From Nymphaea colorata (taxonomy: Eukaryota > Streptophyta > Magnoliopsida > Nymphaeales > Nymphaeaceae), in the NCBI RefSeq assembly GCF_008831285.2, contig NC_045138.2, positions 3,264,143 to 3,328,142 on the forward strand: DNA of 64,000 bases, read 5' to 3'. A program made the translations under genes and the position numbers. Below the pieces are notes generated by a model that searched no databases, was not told where the DNA came from, and saw only the letters and a list, made by a program, of their open reading frames with translations. Below are positions 1,970 to 41,305 of the stretch, in pieces. Positions within the stretch are counted from its first letter, which is position 1, and each line of letters opens with the position of its first letter.

Positions 1970-3277
1970 CAATGAAACCTGTCGTCCTTCTTCCCTCCCG
2001 TCTACCTTCCACCTTCCTTCTTTCCTTCCCTCCTTCTCCGACGAGTCGTTCTTCCTCCTCTGTGTTTATGGATTCTTATTCTATCAGAAGATGCAGAATC
2101 CCGTCTTTGGCTTCTCATCTCGATCAACGAGTCTCCCTTCTTCACCCCTCCCTTTTTCCCTTTTCGTCTTATCGGTCGACGGCGCTGTCCATACCGGAGA
2201 TATGGGATTGTTTGCATAAGTAGCAGAGTGTATTCGCTTTCTTCCGGTAAGCACTTTTGCGCCTGTCAGTAATTTGTAGGCATGCGGTGGATTAACTGGT
2301 CTCGCTTTCTTTCTGTATGATTAATTTTGTTATGTCGAAGAACAAAAGGGTTTGGGGATTAGTTTTGGTGCTAACGTTCTCTTACTAGTGGGTAGCGCTG
2401 TAAAATGATTTATTTGTTAATTTTTCTTTTTCTTGTGCATCATTTGAAACTAAAACTTGCATTTTGGGGCCGTGGACTTCTGATGTACGTGTATTATTTT
2501 GATATAATTTTAAACTTTTCCCTATATTTCACCAAAAGAAAATTTTGTCATGACGAGATTTTCCACCTGTCAAGGAAGTCTTGATACGAGGAGGTCACCA
2601 GCTGTGACGTACTTCATTGTAGCCGTTTTGAATTGCCATCAACAGGAAGCCTCAGTGTAGCACTATGGTCCCGGCGGCCATTTTGATATGCAACAGTCGA
2701 AAATAAATTCTACAGACAATGCTGATGACAAATGCTTAGAACCTTTAGTAAATATTTTATCAGAAATTTTCATAAAAAATGTTAATAAAAATTCGTTGGT
2801 TTCAGTTAATATTGGTTACATCTGACGAAAAGTACTCCTCACATTATATCACAGACCTTTTAGCTCAGAAACTTCTAATGTACGCAAGCTACAAAGGTGG
2901 GACCATGTTAAATGCTACGTGAGATATTGAAAAAGAAATTGGGGCACTTGTTTGCAATATATTTGTTATGCTTTAGGGCTTTTTCTTAATGATGCTTTAC
3001 CCGTGTGCGTTACATGTGGTCAGTTGAACATTTTGGGTACTGTATTTTCTTGTACTGGTTTTCTCATTTTCTCTTTTCGACTGACTTTCTCATGCATTAT
3101 TTTTACTTTTTACTTTAGGTTTAAACTCTTCAAGAACGACAAGCAACATTGAATCATCTTAATCCAAGGGCATTATTCAACTACGAAACGTACTGAGAAA
3201 AATCAGAAAGTTGGCATCTGGTCTTTTTAGTTGCTTGTGAGCAAATGTCATGAAATCATCGTGATAAGTTTGGTGAC
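1970..3277 (+). other. 5' leader of the Smr gene with leader intron and two mini-uORFs
   Basis: A CT-rich leader exon appears to end at 2246 (CTTCCG|GTAAGC). A T-rich tract before TTTAG suggests an acceptor, with exon 2 starting at 3119. That gives an 872-bp leader intron. Just before the main start codon there are two overlapping minimal uORFs: ATG at 3245 with stop 3251-3253, and ATG at 3250 with stop 3262-3264. They could lower initiation at 3278. Leader structure is inferred from splice motifs only. Confidence 0.45.
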
Positions 3278-6200
3278 ATGACCCTTTCACGTGGACCTCA
3301 TCAACCCAAAATGTCAGCTTCTTCAACAGGGAAGTCCTCTGGTTGGACTGCTTTTCACCAAAAGCAGCTGCAGGGGCAGGATGTGGGGACTAAATCAGAA
3401 GTTGATATCTATCCACCTCTCCTAAGCTCATCCTCATCTACTCCTCCATCTCGGTCAGGGACTCTTGCTATTAGCTCATTTAAAAATAAGAAATCTGATA
3501 AAAATGGATTCTATAAGCTCAACGATCACTCAGCAACAAGCTCATTCTCCTCTGCTGCGAAAAGTTCTTTAGATGCTATGCCATTGATTAATCACTGCAA
3601 TAATGGAGCAATAGATCCTTCTTTAAATAAGCATATTAGCAATGGCACGATTAGAAGCATGGCTACTGACGAGAAAGAAAGAGCTGAAAAGTTTGAAAAG
3701 CTGAGACAAATTAACAGTTGGGCTGATGATACATTGATTCAGGATATACTAGCAGCTGTCGATAATAATGAAGATCGGGCTAGCATGATTTTAAGAAGGA
3801 TGGATCTTTCTGCAAACCCTCTGTCCACAGACAAAGAAAATAGCAATAGCAAAATGAACATTACAGACCACGAGGAGAGAAACAGAACAGAAAGCATTGA
3901 ACAATTGAAAGAAAGACACATCTGGGCTGATGATGCTTTGATAGAGGATATATTAGTGTCTGTTGGTGGTAACAAAGATCAAGCTAGCTTGATTTTGGTA
4001 AGTATGTGTCGTGCTGGGGCTGAAGCTGAAGATTTTGGTGATAACTGTGGTGACACGACCCTTTCAGGTGGACCTCGCCAACCCAAAATATCAGCTTGGT
4101 CAACAGGAAGCTCCTCTGGTTGGACTGCTTTTCACCAGAAGCACCCGCAAGGACATAATGTGGGAACTAAATCAAAAGTTGATATCTACCCACCTCTCCT
4201 AACTTCATCCTCATCTACTCGTCCATCTTGGTCAGGGACCCTTGCTTCTTGTTCATCTAAAAATCGGAAATCTGATAAAAATGGATTCTGTGACTATAAG
4301 GTCAGTGAGTACCCGGCAACAAGCTCATCCTCAATTGTGAACAGTTCTTTAGTTGCTATGCCATTGATTAATAACTCCAATAATGGAGCAATAGATCCTT
4401 GTGTAAACAAGCATATTAGCAATGGCACGATTAGAAGCAGGGCTACCGAAGAGAAAAAAAGAGATGAAAAGTTTTCAAAGCTGAGACAAATTAATAGTTG
4501 GGCTGATGATACCTTGATTGAGGATATACTAGCAGCTGTTCATAACAATGAAGAACGGGCTAGCATGATTTTAAGAAGTATGGATCTTTATGCAAGCTCT
4601 CCATCCACAGACAAAGAACATAGCAATAGAGAAATGAACATTACTAACCATGAGGAGATAAACAGAGCTGAAAGCGTTGAACAACTGAAAGAAAGGCACA
4701 TCTGGGCTGACGATGCTTTGATAGAGGATATATTAGTTGCTGTTGGTGGTAATGAAGATCAAGCTAGCTTGATTTTGATAAGTATGTGTCCTACCGGGTA
4801 TGAAGCTGAAGATTTTAGTGATAATTGTGGTGACACGACCCTTTCAGGTGAACCTTGTGAACCCAAAATGTCAGCTTGGTCAACAGGAAGGTCCTCTGGT
4901 TGGACTGCTTTTCACCAAAAGCACCTGCAAGGACATAATGTGGGAACTAAATCAAAAGTTGATATCTACCCACCTCTCATAAGCTCATCCTTATCGATCC
5001 CTCCATCTCAGTCAGGGACCCTTGCTCCTTGCTCATCTAAAAATCAGAAGTCTGATAAAAATGGAATCCGTGATTATAAGCTCAGCGAGTACCCGGCAAC
5101 AAGCTCATTCTCCTCAATTGCAAACAGTTCTTTAGTTGCTATGCCATTGATTGATAACTCCAATATTGGAGCAATAGATCCTTCTGTAAATAAGCATATT
5201 AGCAATGGCACGATTAGAAGCAGGGCTACCGAAGAGAAAAAAAGAGCTGAAAAGTTTGAAAAGCTTAGACAAATTAATAGTTGGGCTGATGATACCTTGA
5301 TTGAGGATATACTAGCAGCTGTCGATAACAATGAAGATCGGGCTAGCATGATTTTAAGAAGTATGGATCTTTATGCAAACTCTCCATCCACAGACAAAGA
5401 ACATAGCAATAGAGAAACCAACATTACGAACCATGAAGAGATAAACAGAGCTGAAAGCATTGAACAACTGAAAGAAAGGCACATCTGGGCTGACAATGCT
5501 TTGATAGAGGATATATTAGTTGCTGTTGGTGGTAATGAAGATCAAGCTAGCTTGATTTTGATAAGTATGTGTCCTACCGGGTATGAAGCTGAAGATTTTG
5601 GTGATAATTTTGGTGACACGACCCTTTCAGGTGAACCTTGTGAACCCAAAATGTCAGCTTGGTCAACAGGAAGGTCCTCTGGTTGGACTGCTTTTCACCA
5701 AAAGCAACTGCAAGGACATAATGTGAGAACTAAACCAAAAGTTGATATTTACCCACCTCTCATAAGCTCATCCTTATCGATCCCTCCATCTCGGTCAGGG
5801 ATCCTTGGTCCTTGCCCATCTAAAAATCAGAAGTCTGATAAAAATGGAATCCGTGATTATAAGATCAGCGAGTACCCAGCAACAAGCTCATTCTCTTCTA
5901 TTGTGAAAAGTTCTGTAGTCGCTATGACATTGACTGATCATTCCAATAATGGAGCAATAGATCTTTTGGCAAATAAGCATACACACAGTGGCATGATTGA
6001 AAAGCTGAGACAAATTAACAGTTGGGCTGATGATACATTGATTGAGGATATACTAGCAGCTGTGGGTAACAATGAAGATCAGGCTAGCATGATTTTAAGA
6101 AGTATGGATCTTTCTGCAAAATCACTGTCTACGGACAAAGATAATAGCAACGGCCAAATGAACATTATGAATTATGAGGAAAGAAACAGAGCTAAAAGCA

Positions 6201-6346
6201 TTGCGCAACTGAAAAAATTACACACCTGGGCGAATGATGCTTTAATGGAGGATATATTATCAGCTGTTGGTGATAATGAAGAGCAAGCTAGCTTGCTTTT
6301 GATAAGTATGTGTCCTACGGGGTCTGAAGCTGAGGAAACAGCAAAA
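3263..6346 (+). repeat. Four tandem ~780-bp coding repeats inside one exon
   Basis: The equivalent codon in the four units falls at 3278, 4055, 4835 and 5618, giving periods of 777, 780 and 783 bp, all multiples of three. Homology extends upstream of the start codon to about 3263: the leader just before the ATG matches the inter-repeat linker coding DNFGDTTLSG. Units 2 to 4 have an ACG (Thr) codon where unit 1 has the ATG. Unit 4 is shorter, about 730 bp, having lost part of the RATEEKKRAEKFEKL region. Units are highly similar at DNA level, so the amplification is fairly recent. Confidence 0.92.
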
Positions 6347-9317
6347 CGAGATGATCTTGAGTGTTCTTCTGTAAAAAACTTAAAGGGGGTAAATCAGCTT
6401 TCTGTTGATGTATACAGAAAAAAGGCTCCTTTGGTTGAGCCTGAGTGGGAACAAGATGACATTTATTTAAGCCATCGGAAGGATGCAATAAAGATGATGA
6501 GGTATGATCCCTCTTCGTTCACAGCATAATTATTTCACAAGGGATTTAACTTTCTGAGTGATGACATGTTCAATTGGGAGTGCAGACTGAGTAAAAGCGT
6601 TATACTCGAAATAATAGCTGAAAATATCAGTCAATGAGGAAAACATTGAAGCAGAATGCTAGGGGATAAATCTCATTATACAGAATGTTGGTATCAAGAA
6701 AAATACAGTGTTATCACAAAATATTGAGGTGTTTGGGAAAAGAGAGCTTGTTTCATGTACTGAAAGTATTTATTGTCATACTTTCGTTACTTGGTTTTTA
6801 GAAATATTTAATGGATTTCTATGCTTTGATTGAAAAAATATGCTATATTTTTGTTTCATTTCGTCCATTTTGAAGTTTTGAAAAGGAGAACTTGTTTTAT
6901 ACATTGTTTGTATATTTTTCTCGTTTTTTGGTTATGTTGTGTTTTAAATTTTCGTCGGATGAATTTCTTTTCTTGATTTAAGAAAATGGTTGTTCAAATA
7001 TTAATCTCCTATCATTTTCAATTTTTCTTCAGATTTTTGAAAATTTTTATGCACCTGAGAATGTGACACTCTAAAAAAAGAAATCCTGAGGAAAACCTTC
7101 ATGAGAAATTTACCTTGAAGAACACTTTTCCTCCTTGAATTTGTCAGTAAGGTAGAAAATGATCGGCAAATATATCGTTTATCTGTTCTTACTTAAACTA
7201 ATATGGGTGTTAACTGTTAAATGTTGTTTGGTTAGTCATTTTCTGAGGGGAAAAACCTGCTTGGGATCTTAATATGTCTTGGCTGTTGCTGCCCCTATTG
7301 GTTGCGGAACTTCTTTATGAACTCTCTTTTCGTTTTGATTTTTTATATGGGTGATAATATACACATGGATGGAGAGAAATTGCCTCGCCTTAGCAGGTTA
7401 AGTGCATAAATAGGTAATCTTAAGCTACGTGCTGTTTTTCAATTATCAGGTTGGCATCACTCCATTCACGGGGCGCTCGCAGTGCTTTTTCAGTAGGTGA
7501 TCATTTCCATGCACGCCAGCTTTCACAGAGAGCCAGAGGAGAATGGCTAGCTGCTGAAAAGCTAAATCAGAAAGCGGCTCAAGAAATTCTCCATCTCAGA
7601 AACAAGGGAAATGATATCTGGAAGTTAGATTTGCATGGACTGCATGCATCTGAAGCTGTAGAAGCAGTAGAAGCCCATCTGGAGAGTATTGAATCTTCAT
7701 TGATGACCAAGGATTCAGTGTGTTCTGCCAAAATAATTAATGGGAAGGGTGCACTTAGAGGTCTTTCTGCTGAATGCGCTAAATCCTCAGACAAGGGAGC
7801 AGCCCCAGAAAAGATAAGGCTGCAAGTTCGGTCATCTCGTCCTCAGAGGCAAACCATGTTAGAAGTTATAACTGGTAAGCAAATGCTGTTTATTTTCTTC
7901 GTTCTCCTTCCATTATTGTTGGTATTTATTTTTCCTGCAACTAGCGAGCCTCATCTAAAGGCTATCTGTCCTAATTAAAACGTTAGTTCTAACGTCTCAC
8001 ACAAGCAAATGGTTGTGCAATAGATGTTGGACACAAACACGATGGTTTCCTTCTGGATAAACCGTTGGTTGATTCTTTATAAAATGCTACTCGTTCATTA
8101 ATGCCTTGGCGAAGAGTCTGCGTAAGTTTGAGCACCTGAGCCATGTATTCATACTCCTGTGAATCTGTTTGATTCACACGAATCATTGGGCAAAGATGGT
8201 GTTTATATGCCATCTAATAGCTTGTGCTGCTCCCATTAGAGGCAAGTTCAATCTGAAGCTTGTAATCTACACATACATCCACACAAAACAGACCCACAGA
8301 TGTGCGCACATATGCACATTATACAGACATGCAAAAGGACTACCACCTAAAATGTTAATAATGAACTTGTTGATATGATGTGAACATAGTAGTTTCTATA
8401 GCTTGTCAGTTTGTTAAGCTTGCAAACAAACTAATTTTTCATGTATTTGTTTGGATTCACAGGAACTGGTAAGCATAGTAGAGGAAATGCTGCACTGCCT
8501 GCTGCAATTAGGAGCTTCCTTCTGACTAACGGGTTTGTTTTCTGCCTTTACTCGTACTATGCATTAAAGCAATGTGCAAATGAAATAAAAAAGAAACTTA
8601 TGATACTTAAGGTGATTATGATTTTTTGACGATAAAAAATTGGGGCATATGATATGGGTGGGCTAGTTGGTTTCTGCTCACTTAAAGATACGTTTCCTAT
8701 AGGAATTGAACTTCTAAAAATAACAGTAGGTGTTGGCCGTACAGCTTCTGGTTCTTCTGTAATGCATTTAGGCGGGTCGCTGTGAAGACTTACATCTCTG
8801 TTAGAAATTTAGAATAAGTGCCACTGGAAGTCGGGTTTGCAGAAAAAACTTGTTGCAAGGTTTCGAGCATTTTTTGATCTTTTCCTTTTTTGTGGGGCTA
8901 GTTACATTCGTTCAAAAGGGCGTCAAAATGCGGTAGTTTCAATCTCTATTGGCAAATACTTCTACAACTCCTTTAAGTATTCCGTCGAATCCGTCCCATG
9001 TTCGGTTGATATCTTAAGAGGAGTCAAATATGGTCCGACTGTTATTTCTCGGCAGACCCCTGTAGTTGATTTTGCTGATCCATAGGAAACTAGTTTTGAT
9101 TGCTTAATCTTGACTGATGACTGCATCATTTCTCTTGGTTTCTTGTGAATATGTGACGAAACAAACTACATTTTTGAGAATTTTTTCCTGATTAGGGCTC
9201 GTCAAATTGATTGTGGCATTGTGCCATGGATGTTGTCCTCCTCTCTTTGTCAGATATCATTTCTATGATGCAAGACCCGGAGTGATCGCGGTGAGGCCCA
9301 AATTCCGGCACAAATGA
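3278..9317 (+). CDS. Smr-domain protein with DUF1771 and four tandem CUE-like modules
   Basis: Exons 3278-6501, 7450-7874, 8463-8532 and 9254-9317 join in phase to 1260 aa. The C-terminus has a DUF1771-like helical stretch (HARQLSQRARGEWLAAEKLN) followed by an Smr domain: LDLHGLH, then VITGTGKHSRG across the exon 2/3 junction, then ARPGVIAVRPKF. Arabidopsis relatives such as At5g58720 are about 500 aa, so this protein is far longer. The excess is four near-identical ~260-residue units starting at residues 1, 260, 520 and 781. Each has an SSGWTAFHQK...VDIYPPL box and two CUE-like motifs of the form SWADDTLIEDILAAV...ASMIL. Smr domains are nucleic-acid associated and often nuclease-like. CUE-type helices usually bind ubiquitin. 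A role here is inference. The first ATG after an in-frame stop (3251-3253) was chosen; Met at 3311 is an alternative. Confidence 0.88.
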
Positions 9318-10108: not shown

Positions 10109-10309
10109 CCATCGATGATTTCAGGCTTGAAGTTGTCGATTGTTTCAACGCTCGACCAGGCAGCCTGAAATCATCGATGGTTTATGAGGGCGAGGGTTTC
10201 AGGCCTGAAATCGTCGACACCCTGTGTTTCAGGCCTGAAACCCTCGACACCCTGTGTTTCAGGCCTGAAACCCTCGACCTTGACCTATCGAAGGGTTTCA
10301 GGCCTGAAA
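10109..10309. repeat. Palindromic minisatellite and 19-bp inverted repeat
   Basis: A self-complementary TTTCAGGCCTGAAA core occurs at 10197-10210, 10227-10240, 10257-10270 and 10296-10309. Spacings are 30, 30 and 39 bp, and spacers contain CCCTCGACACCCTGTG. Just upstream, 10109-10127 and 10162-10180 are exact 19-bp reverse complements (CCATCGATGATTTCAGGCT and its complement), which could form a hairpin with a 34-nt loop. The array abuts the aldolase fragment. It could be a sub-terminal repeat array of a DNA transposon that captured a gene piece, but no terminal inverted repeats were found. Confidence 0.8.
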
Positions 10310-19700: not shown

Positions 19701-20025
19701 AAATGGCGAACTTCAAAAAAATGCTGCATTAGTGCATTAGTTGTAGACTATAAGAAGATTGCTACGAACTCTTCGTGAAAATCCATTCAATGAAGGGAGA
19801 GAAACCAACCACGTCGGCGGTGAAGAGGGAATGGGAGAGCTCAGGGTCGATGGAGGACAGAAGGGAGGAGAGGGAGTTAACGTGCTCCTCCGTCTTGGAG
19901 CAGCCGGCGACGTTGTGGCCCCTCTTCGCCAACTCCACGGCCAGCGCCCTCCCTAGCCCCCTCCCAATCCCCGTCACAAACACCAACTTCCTCTTCGTCG
20001 CCGCTGCTGCCGCCTCCGGTGCCAT
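16750..20025 (-). CDS. Classical short-chain dehydrogenase/reductase
   Basis: Five exons on the minus strand, in coding order 20025-19810, 19608-19539, 17814-17621, 17323-17151 and 16819-16750, join in phase to 240 aa. The NAD(P)-binding motif is VTGIGRGLG (T18 to G25), NNAG is at residues 97-100, a serine pair lies in NFSSGWGR (S150/S151), and the catalytic YxxxK is YCASK (Y164, K168). SPGVINTEL follows, typical of classical SDRs. Length is normal for the class. Substrate cannot be inferred. The basic GHNVAGCSK segment after the first strand-helix-strand suggests NADPH preference, but this is weak. The frame is open upstream of 20025 but lacks any ATG, so the start at 20025 (AATGGC context) is secure. 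Intron 2 is 1724 bp. Confidence 0.93.
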
Positions 20026-21361
20026 TGATCGCCGTCTCTCCCTCGGCCGTGAAGCGCAGAGGAACAACGGACTGGAGCGTCCCGTTCTTGGGGTCGAGAC
20101 GGCAATCGGCAGGTGCGGCGTATCCCCACCCCTCGGCCTTGCCGACCTTCCTCCCGTCGGAGCAACGGTACGGGCTTCTGGTCCACCGACCCGGGTAGGA
20201 ACCGGATCCAAATGGCCACCAAGTCGGGTTCGGATATTCAACCCAGACCCGAAACCGTACCCACGCTGGGCATACGGTGTGTGTGCCAGCGTCGGTCAAT
20301 TATCGCAGCAACATATTGTGGCATGTAGTCATTCATTTCTTAAGAATATGCATGGAAATATAAAAATAATTAACTAAATATACAAGTCTTTTATATAGAT
20401 AGAAACATGTTAATATATTTATCAATTCAATTTTTTGCACGAAAACAAATTACACATGGTTAGAGAGATTTACTCACAGTGTCAATACATATATATATAT
20501 AGTATGTTCTTATGAATATATGAACAAAATTTAAATTGAAAGGAAAAGTGCTGACAAAGGAATATGAGCGCGCTAATTTTTAATATCTAACAATGCAATT
20601 GTGACTTATTTTTTAACACACTTTTTCTTAAAAATAAATTGGATTGCACAAAAGTCCAAGAGTAATTCTTTTTAAGGATCATATTTAAACTTTAGTTTTT
20701 GAATCACAAAATGTGATTTACTTTTGGTTATAGTTTCCATCCTATAGAATCTGCCTGCACAATTAGATTTAAAATTTGAAAAAATGGGATATGAAAAAAG
20801 AGGTTGGGATGCTTAAAAAAAGATCTGATTAAAAAATCAAATCAGATTCAAATATAAGTAAATATCTAATTGGATTTGAATTCGGATTCAGATCATATTT
20901 AATTTTAAATAAACACTCCACACCCAACGCCCTTACATTTTCAAAACTGACTTGATTCTGTTTAGAAATCCAATTTGGATTTAGATATAAATTTAAAAAT
21001 CAAATTTTGATCAGATTGGGATTGTGGAATTGGATTTCAGATTCAGATATGAATATGAATTTTCTTCGTCTAAATATGTGAACATCCAAAAAGCATATAC
21101 AATGAAAAGTGTATCTGATTTAAATACGATCCACTGACATCCATATCTATACAAATAAGATCGAAGGATCTACAAAGACAGGCATCTAATATTTTAGAAA
21201 GAGAAGAAATCCAATGGGAAACCAAAATTCTTGCAACAGTATAGGCCAGCGAGAAAGTAATGTAAATGTTGTCATGAGTAAAGTACCTGTTTTCTCTGTA
21301 GATGAAGACAGATTCTAGAGATTTAATATGCAGCTCTTTCATTATTATTTGCAGTCAAATC

Positions 21362-33800: not shown

Positions 33801-36800
33801 TTTAAAGGTTGTGGTCTGAACCCGAGTTCGAGCTCAAATGCCATTAAGGGAGATTCGACTCTGTTGGATCTGATAAGTAAAGCGTTTTATTGTTGATATG
33901 CTGATATGTCAATAATCATTCAATGACTTCCTCTTCAGTTGGCAATGACCGACTTGTTCACTTCCACGTGTTCACTCCATAAAAGGAGATGATGAGTAAC
34001 CTTGCCTGGAATCAGCTGCCCCTAGGGAAAAACATCTAATATTGTAACGGTTGTTTCGACATTCAAGTACTCCCGAGTTAAGGGGGTTGAACTTAGGATT
34101 TTTGGTTGAAGATGGATAGCAGTCCAGCATGAGAGGAGCAATTCCGCTTAGCATAATGTGGTTAGAGTCTGCATTATCCTAATTTGCAATGGCCAATTAA
34201 ATGCAAGACTAATGAAATGGTTCTGTTGTCCATTATTGTTTTGGTTTTAGATATTTCAGCTCTTAGTTCCATTAATATAATTATTGTTTCAGAATTGGGT
34301 TGATCGGGTTTGCTGTATGACTAAGAAGAACTTTAAATTTCTTACAGTTTGCATGGATTGGTTCGTGGAGAGAACATGGAGCTGGGCAGGGATTCTGACA
34401 CTGGCGGGCAGGTAATTGGATAAATGGAGGTATGAAAATGGGGTACCAACATGGGGTGCCAAGCTGGGCATCAAAACCGGTCAGACTAGATTTAGATTTA
34501 GATATCAAATTAACCTCATTGGACTTTTAGCAGAAATCAGTTAAGTTCGAGTTTGATTATGTTAATATGGCTTCATTTCATAGGCATTCATTTTGCACTA
34601 GTGCAAATTTGGAAAGTGAATCTTTCATTTTCAGCTAAATGACGGAGACCCACTGCCAGCTGAAAGGCTGAAGCCTCCACCTAACCCCTTATCCTCTTAG
34701 GGATTCATTTGTTCTGCTTGTAGATCAATTATTTTTTAATCCAATTTTGAAAGAGAAAAAAAAATCACTTCAACTATTTGTTTTGCTAGTCCTATTGTTT
34801 GCTGTACAAATTTGGATCCTTGTCCAGATTTATCTCAATCTAATCTGCATTCCACCTGCTTACTATCTTATCACTTGTTCATTCTGCTGTCCAACCTCTT
34901 TGAATGTCAAGAAAACTTTGTTAGTAACCTAGATTTTAATTGACAAAACAAGTCTTTTGAAGCTGGTTTGATACAGAAATCAGATTTGGTACATAATTTT
35001 GCCTCCATCCGAGCGGGTACCGAATGTATTGGACGCACTGCTGTGACTTTTTCTAGCATATAAGTTTAAGGCTGCCCTTTGTTTTTGTTACTCATATAAT
35101 ACTTTTTTTAACTAACTCTGTTGTTTATATTATAAAAAGCAGTTTCACTTATTAAAATGATCAGCAAACCGTGGAAACATCGTGGCTCTTCACGATGGTA
35201 TTGATTTTTGGCGTTTTCATCTTCTTTTTTTAATATTATCCAGTGATAAGAAAAAGTTTACAGAAATGATCGAGCTTATATGAAAAAAACAGTTTGCCTC
35301 TTCTCCAAAGATATTTTATAGAGATTAAAATTTGATGTGATCACATTTGAATTAAGAGCAAATCTTTTTTCTCCAAAAAAGTAAATTGCACGTTGAAGGA
35401 AGATAAAACAGTAAATGGCAAAACATAGAGGGAGAGCAGCAGGAGCAGGATATTGTTTTTTAAGAGAGATTCTCACAAAAAGGTTCCAAGTTATTGGAAT
35501 CAAGGAGAGATTCTCACAAAAAGGTTCCAAGTATTGGAATCAAGGCGAAGCTTTACTCCTACCTTGGTGAGTCAAAAGAGGTGACCTTTTCGATGATCGT
35601 GCAGGTCAAATACGTGGTGGAACTGGCGAGGGCGCTAGCAGCGACCAAGGGAGTCTACCGGGTGGACCTCCTGACCCGACAGATCTCCTCCCCGGACGTC
35701 GACTGGAGCTACGGGGAGCCTACGGAGATGCTCACTCGTCCCACGGACGCCGCCTGGGGTGACGGCGACGGCAGCGGCGCCTACATCATCCGCCTTCCCT
35801 GCGGGCCTCGCGACAAGTACATTCCCAAGGAATCGTTGTGGCCCCACATTCCGGAGTTCGTGGACGCCGCCCTAGCGCACGTCTCCAACATGGCGAGGGC
35901 GCTCGGCGAGCAGCGACAGCGCGGGGGGTCCGGTCACGTGTGGCCCTACGTGATTCACGGTCACTACGCAGACGCCGGCGAGGTGGCTGCCTGGCTCTCC
36001 GGCGCGCTAAACGTGCCCATGGTGCTGACGGGTCACTCGCTTGGGAGGAACAAGTTCGAGCAGTTGCTGAAGCAGGGGAGGCTCTCTAAAGACGATATCA
36101 ACAGCACGTACAGGTAAGGACTGTCAAGAGCTTGAGTTTTAGCCATGTTATTGAGTTCTCCTGACGGTTCCTCATTTTTCAGAAAAAAGGTTCTTTGATG
36201 CAGAAACATTTTGACACTATCCTGACCGGTTTGTTTGCTGATAATCGGCTAACTGATTAACAGTGAACTCAAATTCTTCCAATTGTGTTTGTTTAAGCCC
36301 CTGGAATATCATTTTAACTCAAGGTTGGGAATCGCTATATGCTTTCAAAAAACGTTCATGATTGAAAAAGTATCAGGAAAGCCATGAGGAACAAAATGGA
36401 ATTTCTAGCAAATTGAGGCTATGTTGGTTGTGAATGGGGATGTTTTAAGCTGATTGAATCGTGTTTGCTCAGAAAAAGTCTGTGGTATCTTAGGGAGTCG
36501 TAAATGTATCTCACAAATCCAGAAAGTTATACAATGACTAGGTCCTGTTTGTGCCAGTCATTTTAGTATATATGGTAAAAGTTTCCACTGCTCCAAAAAA
36601 TTCTTTCGGTTGCATACTTGCATGAATAGGCTGTGCAAATGCTTGTCATGGAATACTGTACAGGATAATGAGAAGGATCGAGGCAGAGGAGTATAGCCTA
36701 GACTCCGCAGAGATGGTGGTGACCAGCACGCGCCAGGAGATCGAGGAGCAGTGGGGGCTTTATGATGGGTTCGACGTGAATCTGGAAAGAAAGCTGAGAG

Positions 36801-39800
36801 CGAGGGCCAGAAGAGGGGTGAGCTGCCATGGGCGGTACATGCCACGGATGGTGGTGGGCATCTCTCTCTCTCTCTCTCCAGTGCGTGCAAGCACACAATG
36901 CACATAACACTCACGGCCTAATCCGTTCTTATATTAGCATTTAAAGCTCAACTACTAGTGTAGATTACCAGAGCAATCTCTCAATTGTGGAACGTAGTCG
37001 TGTCTGAATGGTTGCAAGCCCCCAAGATGGTGCTTTATAGAGGAAGTGGTTTCCTTAATGGGGTACCCAAACCCAATGTTCGAACTTATATTTTTCTACC
37101 ACTTTGCACTAGACTAAAAATCATGTCAGCTGGTGCTGTAGCTTAGTAATGTGAAGCACCAGTAGAACTCCACTTTGTGTCGATCATGGGCATTAAATTC
37201 TATTCTCCAAATTCCAACCATGTTTCCTCACAGTGGGAAAGCACTGCTTATCGGTATCCAACAGATTCTTTTGGTTGGGCAATTTGTTGGCAATGTTATG
37301 GTGAAAGTCTAGGGTTTAGAGCTGAATTTGTTGTGCGTTAATGTGCTTACTAGCTATGCTTGTTTCTCATATGTAGGTAATACCACCGGGTATGGATTTC
37401 AGCTATGTGAACACTCAAGAGTTGCTAGATGGAGATGCTGATATCGCAGCCTTGATTGGATCCGACCGAAATCAGAGCAAAAGAAATCTACCGCCTATAT
37501 GGTCTGAGGTATGCGGTTTTATCCTTAATTGCCCATATCAAGCCTGAAATAGCTCCTTCTATATTGTTTTTCTTTTTCTCTTGTTTTGAAATGCCTATTT
37601 TGCAGATTATGCGTTTCTTCACAAATCGTCACAAACCAATGATCCTCGCACTCTCTCGCCCTGATCCTAAAAAAAATGTGACCACATTGTTGAAAGCATT
37701 TGGAGAGTGCCGTCCATTGCGAGAGCTTGCAAACATGGTATGCTTGTCTTGTTCATTCTGATATCTTCAGAAGTAGAAAGTTCCAGTACTTAACGTAGCA
37801 GCCGGTGGATTCATCATCCCTGGAGCATGTGTTTTTCAAAGAGGGGAGAAGAAGTGGATATGTTCCAGAGGTGAGGGAGACTACCCTGCTACTAGATCAG
37901 AGTAGTCCAAAGTAGTGGAACTTGTGTCCTTCAAACGTATGTCATCCTTACAGAAAAAGTGGATTTGCGTTCTGCTGAATTGCAGATAAGCTATTAAAAA
38001 TTGCTTCATTGTGATTTCCTTATTTCTCACTGCTGAAGCAACCTTGATGATTTTTGGCCGAGCAGACCCTTATCCTTGGAAACAGAGATGACATAGAAGA
38101 AATGTCTGGGACCAGCTCCAGTGTTCTGACGACCGTTTTGAAGCTTATTGACAAATACGATTTGTATGGGCAAGTGGCATATCCCAAGCGTCACAAACAG
38201 GCAGAAGTGCCAGAAATATACCGACTTGCAGCAAAAACGAAGGTATATTGGTTTGTAATTTGAATCGTTTGCGAAAAAATTCCAAAGAATCAGTTAACAT
38301 CAAATGAATCTAAATCACCTTTGAAGTGGAACCGTTAGGTTAGAGTTTCTAAAGAAATCTGAAAAGATATAAAACTACAGAATTTGAGAAACTTCAAAGT
38401 CAGTGATTTATAGGCTTTAATCAGTTGGAGATAAAAGACACTGGTTTGTGCACTTCGCTTTTTATTTCCTCCTCTACCAGTAACTGGAGGTAGGACCTTG
38501 ATGGTGGTCTGTATTGTACTCAAGCGCCTCTCTGTGAGAAACGTTTGAGAACTTTCTGATATCCTCCTGCTGATTATTTTTTTTGGAATTTTTTTGCAGG
38601 GCGTTTTCATAAATCCAGCTCTTGTAGAACCCTTTGGTCTCACGCTCATAGAGGTACTCGTGCTTCACACATGGTCGCCTGGTCGGCTTGTTCCATATTT
38701 CTTGTCGAAGGAAGAAAAAAAAAAAATTAACTCTACACTGTTGAACGTGACTGCAGGCAGCAGCTTACGGTCTTCCGGTTGTGGCAACCAAAAATGGTGG
38801 ACCGGTTGACATTCTCAAGGTAACACTTGGAAGTCATAAAGACAAGTTCACATATGAGTAGCTATGATTCTTAAATGACATGAATTCGAAATTTACCTTC
38901 TCTTTGCCCACTATTGCAGGCGTTGAACAATGGGCTCCTGATCGATCCCCATGACCATAAGGCAATCGCAGACGCGCTGCTTCGCCTCGTCTCGGACAAG
39001 TCCCTGTGGCAGGATTGTCGCAAGAACGGCCTTCGCTACATCTCCCGCTTCTCTTGGCCAGAACACTGCCGCAACTACCTCTCCCACGTCGCCCATTGCC
39101 GCGCCCGCCGCCCCTCCGGGCGTGGCCCCGACGCTTCCACCCCAGCCCGCCTGGCCGTCGAGGAGGAGGAGGAGCCCATGAGCGACTCCCTCCGTGACGT
39201 TCAGGACCTCTCCATTCGCTTTTCCCTCGATGTCGATGTCGCCAAAGCCAACGGTGACGACAACACTACCTCCAAGCGGGAGCTAATCCTCTCCGCTCTC
39301 CGCTCAGCGTCGAAGGCGCGTTCCCGCGAACCTTCCCAAACCCCCGGCTTCTTCCGGCCAGGACGCCGTCAACGCCTATTCATCATCGCCCTCGACTGCT
39401 ATGGCCAGGATGGGGCACCAAGTGGGAGACTGTCGGAGGTCGTACGAGAGATAACTGAAGCCGGAGGGGACAGTCGAACCGGATACATCCTAGCCACCGG
39501 CGCCACACTGGCGGAGGCCTGGGAGGCGCTCAAATCGTGCCATGTTGAGCCAGAGGCTTTCGATGCTTTGATCTGCTGCAGCGGGGCGGAGGTCTATTAT
39601 CCCTGGAAGGACGTGGAGGGTGATGAAGATTACGGGTCTCACATTGGGTACAGGTGGCCGCAGGATAGCGTCCGATCAGCAGTGGCCAGGTTGGCGAGGA
39701 CGGAGGGTGCGACCGAGGACGACGTGCTGGCGGAGGACGAAGGGTGCAGCTCGAGGTGCCTCCGTTATGCCGTCAAAGCTGGAGCCAAGGTGAGGGAACC

Positions 39801-41305
39801 GAGTTTTTTTTTTTTTCCCAATCACTGCAGACCAAGTGTTTTGACGCCTACCAATTCAGATCTCGTATATATATGTGTGTGTGCGCGTCGCCAGCAAGTG
39901 CATTTATATGTGTGTAGTTGTCGCTGGTAAATAGGGTTGAAGTTGAAGCATTTGAACCTTTCAATTTGATTTTGGACAGGTTTTGAGGGTTGACGATCTG
40001 AAGCAAAAGCTGCGAATGCGAGGTTTTCGCTGCAACGTGGTTTATACGCATTCTTGTTCACGCTTGAACGTGGTTCCATTGTTCGCATCAAGATCAATGG
40101 CACTAAGGTCAGCTCTCACAACCTAAAAGTTCGTTTTTTTACTGTGTAAACTTTCATTTTCAAGTTAAGGCAGGTCTCTAGTTTGATTTTCGTGGGCGTT
40201 ATGTTCCTGTGTCTTAAGGCGGTAGGGCGCGGTATCCAAGCTGACGGGTGCACCGTTGCTATCGCTGACACCGACGCAGCTCAGGACCCCGGAGGTAGGG
40301 GGAATGGGGGGGCCTTCGGGCCTTGCTTGGGTGGTGGGGGTTATCTTCAGCCTCAAGAGGCATAGCGTAGCTGGTCGAGCTAAGGGCCTGTATTAAGGCA
40401 GGTCTCTAGTTTGATTCTCGTGGGCGCTATGTTCCTGTGTCTTAAGGCGATAGGGCGCGGTATCCAAGCTGACGGGTGCACCGTTGCTATCGCTGACACC
40501 GACGCAGCTCAGGACCCCGGAGGCAGGGGGAATGGGGGGGCCTTCGGGCCTTGCTTGGGCGGTGGGGGTTAACACCTCTCGCTCACCCCAAAAAAAAAAG
40601 TGGTCATCTTCATGTCCTGAGTGTAAGTCACCTAGGACCTGAACAATTAGTCGAGGCCAACTCAGACACTCACCAGTATAGCTAGACTCGTGGAGCTCAA
40701 GTTGTAGGAATTCGACTTGTTTAAACTCGACTCAGCAACATGCATGGTGTCATGGGCAACGGTACATAGATCATGAAAGCTGAGAAATTCTTACACTTCT
40801 ATGAGCAGAACGGTACATGGAATAGATCAGTAGAGCGGAGAATTCCTCCATTTCTATGGGCAGAACGGTACATGGAATAGATCATGAAAGCTGAGAAATT
40901 CTTACACTTCTACGGGGAGGAGCTTGCATGGTTCACGAGATCCCTGAAAATAACTTTCATGTTTGTTTATCCGTCATCTGATTGTCGTATTATCAGTCAA
41001 GCTGCTTCTTAAGCTAATTGAATTGATTACTGTGTAGGTATCTATCGGTTCAGTGGGGCATTGATCTCTCAAAAATGGTGGTGTTCGTCGGGGACAAGGG
41101 CGATACTGATTACGAGCATCTCCTTCCCGGCCTCCACAAGACATTGATTCTGAGAGGAACCGTTGAATGTGGGAGTGAGAGGCTGCTTCGTGGTAGTGGC
41201 CGTTACCAGATGGAGGATGTGGTGCCTAAGGATGCTCCTAATATTTGTGCCGTCGATAAGGATTATACAGCCCAAGATATCTCTGCTGCATTGAAGAAGC
41301 TCTAA
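27807..41305 (+). CDS. SPS: Sucrose-phosphate synthase (family C type)
   Basis: Fourteen exons join in phase to 1029 aa: 27807-27998, 32048-32137, 32929-33149, 34348-34411, 35605-36113, 36664-36853, 37377-37508, 37606-37737, 38066-38242, 38600-38653, 38757-38819, 38920-39789, 39980-40107, 41038-41305. The cytosolic enzyme joins UDP-glucose and fructose-6-phosphate into sucrose-6-phosphate. The start [16 protein letters not shown] is diagnostic. A GT-B glycosyltransferase core (about 160-640) contains [27 protein letters not shown] and the [10 protein letters not shown]-x7-E motif (E579, E587). A C-terminal phosphatase-like domain (from ~755) has ALDCYG, lacking the second aspartate of true sucrose-phosphatases. 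Sites matching known regulatory serines are visible: RIGS (S148), RQISSPD (S217/S218) and GVSCHGR (S412). [12 protein letters not shown] and [16 protein letters not shown] resemble the SPS4F/family C branch. Exons 5 and 12 are markedly GC-rich. Intron 1 is 4.05 kb. Confidence 0.97.
30831..31071. mobile_element. Tourist-like MITE in SPS intron 1 (241 bp)
   Basis: Terminal inverted repeats GGTCACGTTTGAT and GGTTGTGTTTGAT (right end reverse-complemented) match at 10 of 13 positions. TAA trinucleotides flank both ends (30828-30830 and 31072-31074), the target duplication of PIF/Harbinger MITEs. The interior has several TGAGATCTA-type words and no coding capacity. Confidence 0.7.
40165..40351 (+). 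mobile_element. 5'-truncated SINE copy in SPS intron 13
   Basis: From TTAAGGCAGGTCTC onward this matches 40393-40573 at about 97% by eye, including box B (GTTTGATT). The box A head is missing, and the 3' end is interrupted by the second copy. Confidence 0.55.
40352..40600 (+). mobile_element. SINE with A-tail in SPS intron 13
   Basis: Box A (TAGCGTAGCTGG, 40363-40374) and box B (GTTTGATTC, 40409-40417) stand at pol III promoter spacing. The element ends in a run of ten A residues. Similar TTATCTTCA (before) and TCATCTTCA (after the tail) sequences may be its target duplication, which would place its insertion in the tail of the first copy. Orientation is the same as the host gene. Confidence 0.6.
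40757..40915. repeat. Degenerate tandem repeat in SPS intron 13
   Basis: GAAAGCTGAGAAATTCTTAC appears twice (near 40777 and 40886). GCAGAACGGTACATGGAAT also appears twice, giving about two and a half units of roughly 55-65 bp. Confidence 0.75.

Follow-up and report, generated by a model that had tools for sequence, protein, structure and literature searches.

What does a plant Smr-family gene gain, if anything, when its N-terminal module is multiplied fourfold within one exon? The question is posed by a gene of Nymphaea colorata near the start of a 64,000-nt window (NC_045138.2, positions 3,264,143 to 3,328,142, forward strand), which lies 3.26 Mb into contig 1; coordinates below are those of the window. 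The analysis showed that the fourfold amplification is real in this assembly. Our tentative answer is that in-frame tandem duplication made a four-unit, eight-bundle flexible multivalent arm on a Cue2/NONU-1-like Smr protein.

Four units in one exon of a DUF1771-Smr gene

An open frame on the + strand (3278-6529) spanned the whole array and contained no stops in any unit. At the DNA level, repeat families covered 3261-6296 with start-to-start spacings of 777, 780 and 783 bp (family D3), and the last step of families D1 and D2 was 741 bp, that is, 783 minus 42 bp absent from the fourth unit. The repeat families and the open frame agreed on the in-frame amplification, with the periods that the sequence-only reading had given. 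Splicing of the model, with junctions at 6501/7450, 7874/8463 and 8532/9254 and a stop codon ending at 9317, yielded the expected product of 1260 aa; splice sites were picked for their GT/AG ends, for continuity of the frame and for the domain sequence expected, without complementary DNA. The units (U1 to U4) and exons were located as follows.

3278-6501, + strand: coding exon 1, with all four units and the start of DUF1771
3278-4054, + strand: U1, 259 aa, beginning at the ATG of the gene
4055-4834, + strand: U2, 260 aa, with ACG at the position of the U1 ATG
4835-5617, + strand: U3, 261 aa
5618-6346, + strand: U4, 243 aa, without 42 bp ahead of its first bundle
6347-6501, + strand: remainder of coding exon 1, in which DUF1771 begins (splice model, Pfam)
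7450-7874, + strand: coding exon 2, DUF1771 and the LDLH-bearing part of Smr (splice model, Pfam, motif scan)
8463-8532, + strand: coding exon 3, Smr TGTG, the first Gly codon split with exon 2 (splice model, motif scan)
9254-9317, + strand: coding exon 4, end of Smr and stop (spliced model)

When the 1075-aa exon was used as a query against the window's own assembly (407.8 Mb, 783 contigs), a single match was found at E <= 0.001, with six candidates scored. Upstream of the gene, a likely 5'-leader intron was seen by eye at 2247-3118 (donor GTAAGC near 2247, acceptor near 3118).

The four units were 82.8-93.7% identical to one another in nucleotides and 68.0-88.1% in amino acids. Each consisted of a disordered-looking linker of about 130 residues, with an SGWTAF...DIYPPL box, followed by two bundles. 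The SGWTAF and DIYPPL boxes were present in all four units, as had been proposed, but the motif ascribed to every bundle held less strictly: the literal WADD-x-LIEDIL was found in five of the eight, with WADD alone in six and LIEDIL alone in six.

A profile hidden Markov model search of the 1260-aa product for CUE, DUF1771 and Smr returned the latter two above their Pfam cut-offs, Smr narrowly, but not CUE. DUF1771 (PF08590) scored 46.5 bits against a cut-off of 28.7 at residues 1063-1126, covering the full model (1-64), and Smr (PF01713) scored 26.6 bits against 25.7 in two stretches, from residue 1134. The Smr motifs were intact, with LDLH at 1134-1137 and TGTG at 1216-1219. Comparison of the tail with the sequences of solved structures (phmmer, E <= 1) returned three chains of the N4BP2 Smr domain and nothing else, with E between 1e-6 and 3e-6. 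Family 2 of the Smr proteins is defined by the LDXH and TGXG motifs (PMC3200294), and on its motifs the gene is predicted to encode a family-2 DUF1771-Smr protein. The residue between the two TGXG glycines is Thr in PPR-SMR proteins and Arg in Cue2, and Thr, Arg and Lys at this place are all described as able to aid catalysis (PMC12292046).

The eight bundles and their known counterparts

The bundles were placed by bundle alignment and predicted fold.

3674-3829, + strand: CUE-like bundle 1 of U1
3881-4015, + strand: CUE-like bundle 2 of U1
4454-4609, + strand: CUE-like bundle 1 of U2
4661-4795, + strand: CUE-like bundle 2 of U2
5237-5392, + strand: CUE-like bundle 1 of U3, the sequence modelled
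5444-5578, + strand: CUE-like bundle 2 of U3
5996-6130, + strand: CUE-like bundle 1 of U4
6185-6319, + strand: CUE-like bundle 2 of U4

AlphaFold2 run on the eight-bundle alignment predicted three helices with a mean predicted local distance difference test score (pLDDT) of 89.4, a fold of the three-helix UBA type. When this model was submitted to Foldseek, 25 among the 50 matches listed (of 91) named a UBA, UBA-like or CUE domain. The model of a whole unit (261 residues) contained two bundles, with pLDDT below 50 for 144 of the 261 residues and for most of the first 120 or so. The eight-bundle profile scored 22.0 against three CUE sequences from the PDB, and the best of 200 column shuffles scored 19.3; this comparison took in Tollip, CUEDC1 and Vps9, which scored highest among those of the 22 listed PDB sequences that were displayed, and did not use the Cue2 CUE chain 1otr (E 0.22). 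The Pfam CUE profile (PF02845) gave no match at E <= 10 with the whole protein or with units 3 and 4 alone, in a search in which the HMMER filters drop most weak matches. The eight CUE-like motifs of the sequence-only reading were therefore borne out as a predicted CUE/UBA-type fold, but not as Pfam CUE matches. A search of PDB sequences with the bundle profile gave five matches, none of them a CUE or UBA protein. Weak Pfam matches to other families (e.g. Ca_bind_SSO6904, DUF359 and RelA_AH_RIS) fell below the cut-offs and were taken as chance.

The predicted fold and the domain order, and these only, resemble those of Cue2, NONU-1 and N4BP2, in which CUE-type bundles likewise stand in tandem at the N terminus and a family-2 Smr domain with DxH lies at the C terminus. 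In yeast Cue2, which cleaves mRNA where ribosomes have stalled, a pair of CUE domains precedes the C-terminal SMR domain (PMC6598757). Two or more CUE domains are present in NONU-1 and in its homologues; a NONU-1 lacking them does not function, although its authors allow that they may be needed for expression alone (PMC9870110). For N4BP2, the likeness extends to the Smr domain, which was the best solved-structure match to the tail of the present protein, and DUF1771 also adjoins the Smr domain there (PMC3200294). The layout differs from that of Cue2, in which the order is CUE-CUE-UBA-CUE (PMC13232801), by having eight bundles in four units, and Thr instead of the Arg of Cue2 stands in TGXG.

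Among plant proteins, the AT5G23520-type SMR proteins are probably the direct family of this gene. We take them to resemble it in the SGWTAF and WADD motifs, and they presumably have a single N-terminal module. The gene 'SMR' in the willow palindrome has an Arabidopsis SMR domain protein of this AT5G23520 type as its best match (PMC7023750). The plant CID7 protein, of CID class C1, has the layout PAM2-CUE-DUF1771-SMR (PMC4574140) and is alike in combining a CUE variant with DUF1771 and SMR. It is unlike in its PAM2 motif, of which no match was found in the 1260-aa product with loose patterns. No description of a multiplied CUE/Smr module was found in a literature search of titles and abstract starts in a limited collection, and a scan of IMG/VR with unit 3 gave no match, records near the window's own genome possibly having been excluded.

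Growth and maintenance of the array

The second bundles were 47-60% identical to the first bundle of U3, whereas the other first bundles were 87-90% identical to it, so a bundle pair predates the amplification of the unit. The repeat also extended about 18 nt 5' of the ATG. The start codon at 3278 lay inside the repeat, and its counterparts in U2-U4 (4055, 4835 and 5618) were ACG. On our reading, the original duplication would have fused the 5' leader in frame to what follows the second bundle.

3260-3277, + strand: 5' leader stretch resembling the three unit junctions, which it matches at 15, 15 and 16 of 18 nt

The later history could be followed in 26 sites that grouped the units two by two, as U3 with U4 or as U2 with U3. 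A single split fitted 25 of them, with U3+U4 before about codon 80 and U2+U3 after about codon 87, and none of 200,000 shuffles matched it; one more two-by-two site (U2 with U4) was set aside from this test. In the 5' part, U3 and U4 differed at 8 of 240 sites (3.3%), and in the 3' part U2 and U3 differed at 22 of 522 (4.2%), whereas the remaining unit pairs were 10-18% apart in the same segments. The last duplication would thus have begun midway through U2 and ended midway through the following unit, as expected of unequal crossing-over. The mosaic split, together with the contrast between 3.3% or 4.2% and 10-18%, argues for stepwise growth by unequal crossing-over with the last step the youngest. 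The expansion that had been suggested was upheld, by recombination, and "recent" applies to the last step but not to the other unit pairs. The breakpoint zone of that step, at codons 80-87, was delimited by the site-grouping test.

4292-4313, + strand: breakpoint zone in U2
5072-5093, + strand: counterpart in U3
5855-5876, + strand: counterpart in U4

The DNA spacings of the units differed by multiples of three only, no unit contained a stop, and the ratio of nonsynonymous to synonymous substitution rates (dN/dS) between units was 0.48-0.61, which together say that the reading frame was maintained across the four units. The in-frame gaps of the protein alignment (6, 3 and 42 bp, plus 12 bp at the end of the unit) were not used as evidence of this because they are multiples of three by construction; the DNA spacings were used instead. 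In a neutral simulation, a fraction of 0.0006 of the 20,000 runs left all four units free of stops, the mean number of stops being 7.0; because the simulation used 213 changes, counted per copy, where 185 were distinct, it exaggerates the contrast somewhat.

Two points weigh against a functional arm. The downstream Smr domain alone would demand an open frame, and the need for each bundle is not shown thereby. In addition, the test of change counts between bundles and linker was not significant (p 0.18 and 0.64; 0.23 for both bundles). The pairwise ratio of nonsynonymous to synonymous proportions of differences (pN/pS) was lowest in bundle 1 (0.22), with 0.46 in bundle 2 and 0.70 in the rest, and stronger constraint on the bundles than on the linker is not claimed in view of that test.

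Neutral or nearly neutral expansion, in which unequal crossing-over adds units to a tolerant, mostly disordered region and the unit number is functionally meaningless, is a serious rival, and quite possible. It is consistent with the dN/dS values, with the lack of a significant difference in nonsynonymous-to-synonymous counts between linker and bundles, and with the low-confidence, disordered-looking half of each unit. It is opposed by the frame kept over four units where about seven stops were simulated, subject to the same demand of the Smr domain, and by the low pN/pS of bundle 1, subject to the count test.

Ubiquitin contacts and the putative partner

The second alternative is that eight working CUE domains bind ubiquitin with raised avidity. 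The predicted bundle fold and the tandem pair ahead of Smr, as in Cue2 (PMC6598757), favor it. In yeast, two N-terminal CUE domains are required for one branch of no-go decay (PMC9841427), and CUE-D1 and CUE-D2 of Cue2 have been proposed to bind the lysine 63-linked (K63) chains that eS7 carries in collided ribosomes. The contacts of Cue2 with ubiquitin are made by Phe20-Pro21 and Leu46-Leu47 (PMC9841427), but neither pair was kept in any of the eight bundles. In the register of the profile alignment, Asn or His followed by Ser, Ile or Thr replaced the Phe-Pro after helix 1. The di-leucine of helix 3 was replaced by Leu followed by Arg, Val or Ile, the first leucine being retained in all eight. 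The counterpart of Ile43, named as a key CUE contact (PMC13232801), would be Ser in every bundle, assuming that the numbering is that of Cue2. The UBAh bundle of HBS1L is divergent, yet binds ubiquitin (PMC13232801). Judged by these residues, classical binding is disfavored and a role in ubiquitin binding is doubtful; raised ubiquitin avidity, as first proposed for the array, was weakened both by the missing Pfam CUE match and by the absence of the canonical contact pairs, and we regard eight ubiquitin-binding CUE domains as unlikely. Since every copy departs from the CUE pattern at its contact residues, a partner would probably not be bound in the classical CUE-ubiquitin manner.

A flexible multivalent arm, our preferred reading, could still work through another partner. 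The C-terminal Smr domain would act on RNA by analogy with the mRNA-surveillance nucleases Cue2 and NONU-1, and the eight bundles, as modelled, may form a targeting arm with increased avidity for a partner. In its best-supported form, the proposal is of an Smr domain that cuts nucleic acid and is guided by eight docking bundles on a flexible arm. The target might be the ribosome, to which more bundles would bind more tightly. It is a long shot that plants use this DUF1771-Smr lineage as a Cue2-type sensor of collided ribosomes, in which the eight bundles would recognize either a mark of non-canonical type or, simultaneously, several ubiquitinated sites along stacked ribosomes. According to a review from 2025 on no-go decay in plants, Cue2 seems to be missing from plant species, where functional orthologues of Hel2 and Cue2 await identification (PMC12535099).

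An assembly artefact or pseudogene is very improbable, given that the units are 6-17% different and are arranged as an ordered mosaic, that every exon continues the open frame and usable GT/AG sites are present, and that an array of some 3.1 kb is small next to long reads, if the assembly is the PacBio water lily one.

Elsewhere in the window, two open frames on the + strand, with matches to glycosyltransferase family 4 and to a sucrose-6-phosphate phosphatase-like domain, together have the look of pieces of a sucrose-phosphate synthase gene. These and the other features are listed here.

10196-10278, within a + strand open frame: tandem 30-bp repeat, 2.8 copies, including the palindromic TTTCAGGCCTGAAA
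14236-15879, + strand: NPH3-family open frame, an ordinary plant gene (PF03000, E 1.5e-61)
19762-20295, - strand: N-terminal portion of a short-chain dehydrogenase, matching positions 1-47 of the 195 in the profile (PF00106, E 1.4e-6)
35464-36117 and 38884-39930, + strand: the two open frames named above

The locus offers a clean case of the growth of a domain array by unequal crossing-over within one exon, in which the breakpoint zone of the last event can still be read. It also presents a plant gene with a Cue2-like architecture, whose degenerate CUE-type bundles are missed by the Pfam CUE profile and occur here, by predicted fold, in a four-unit form.
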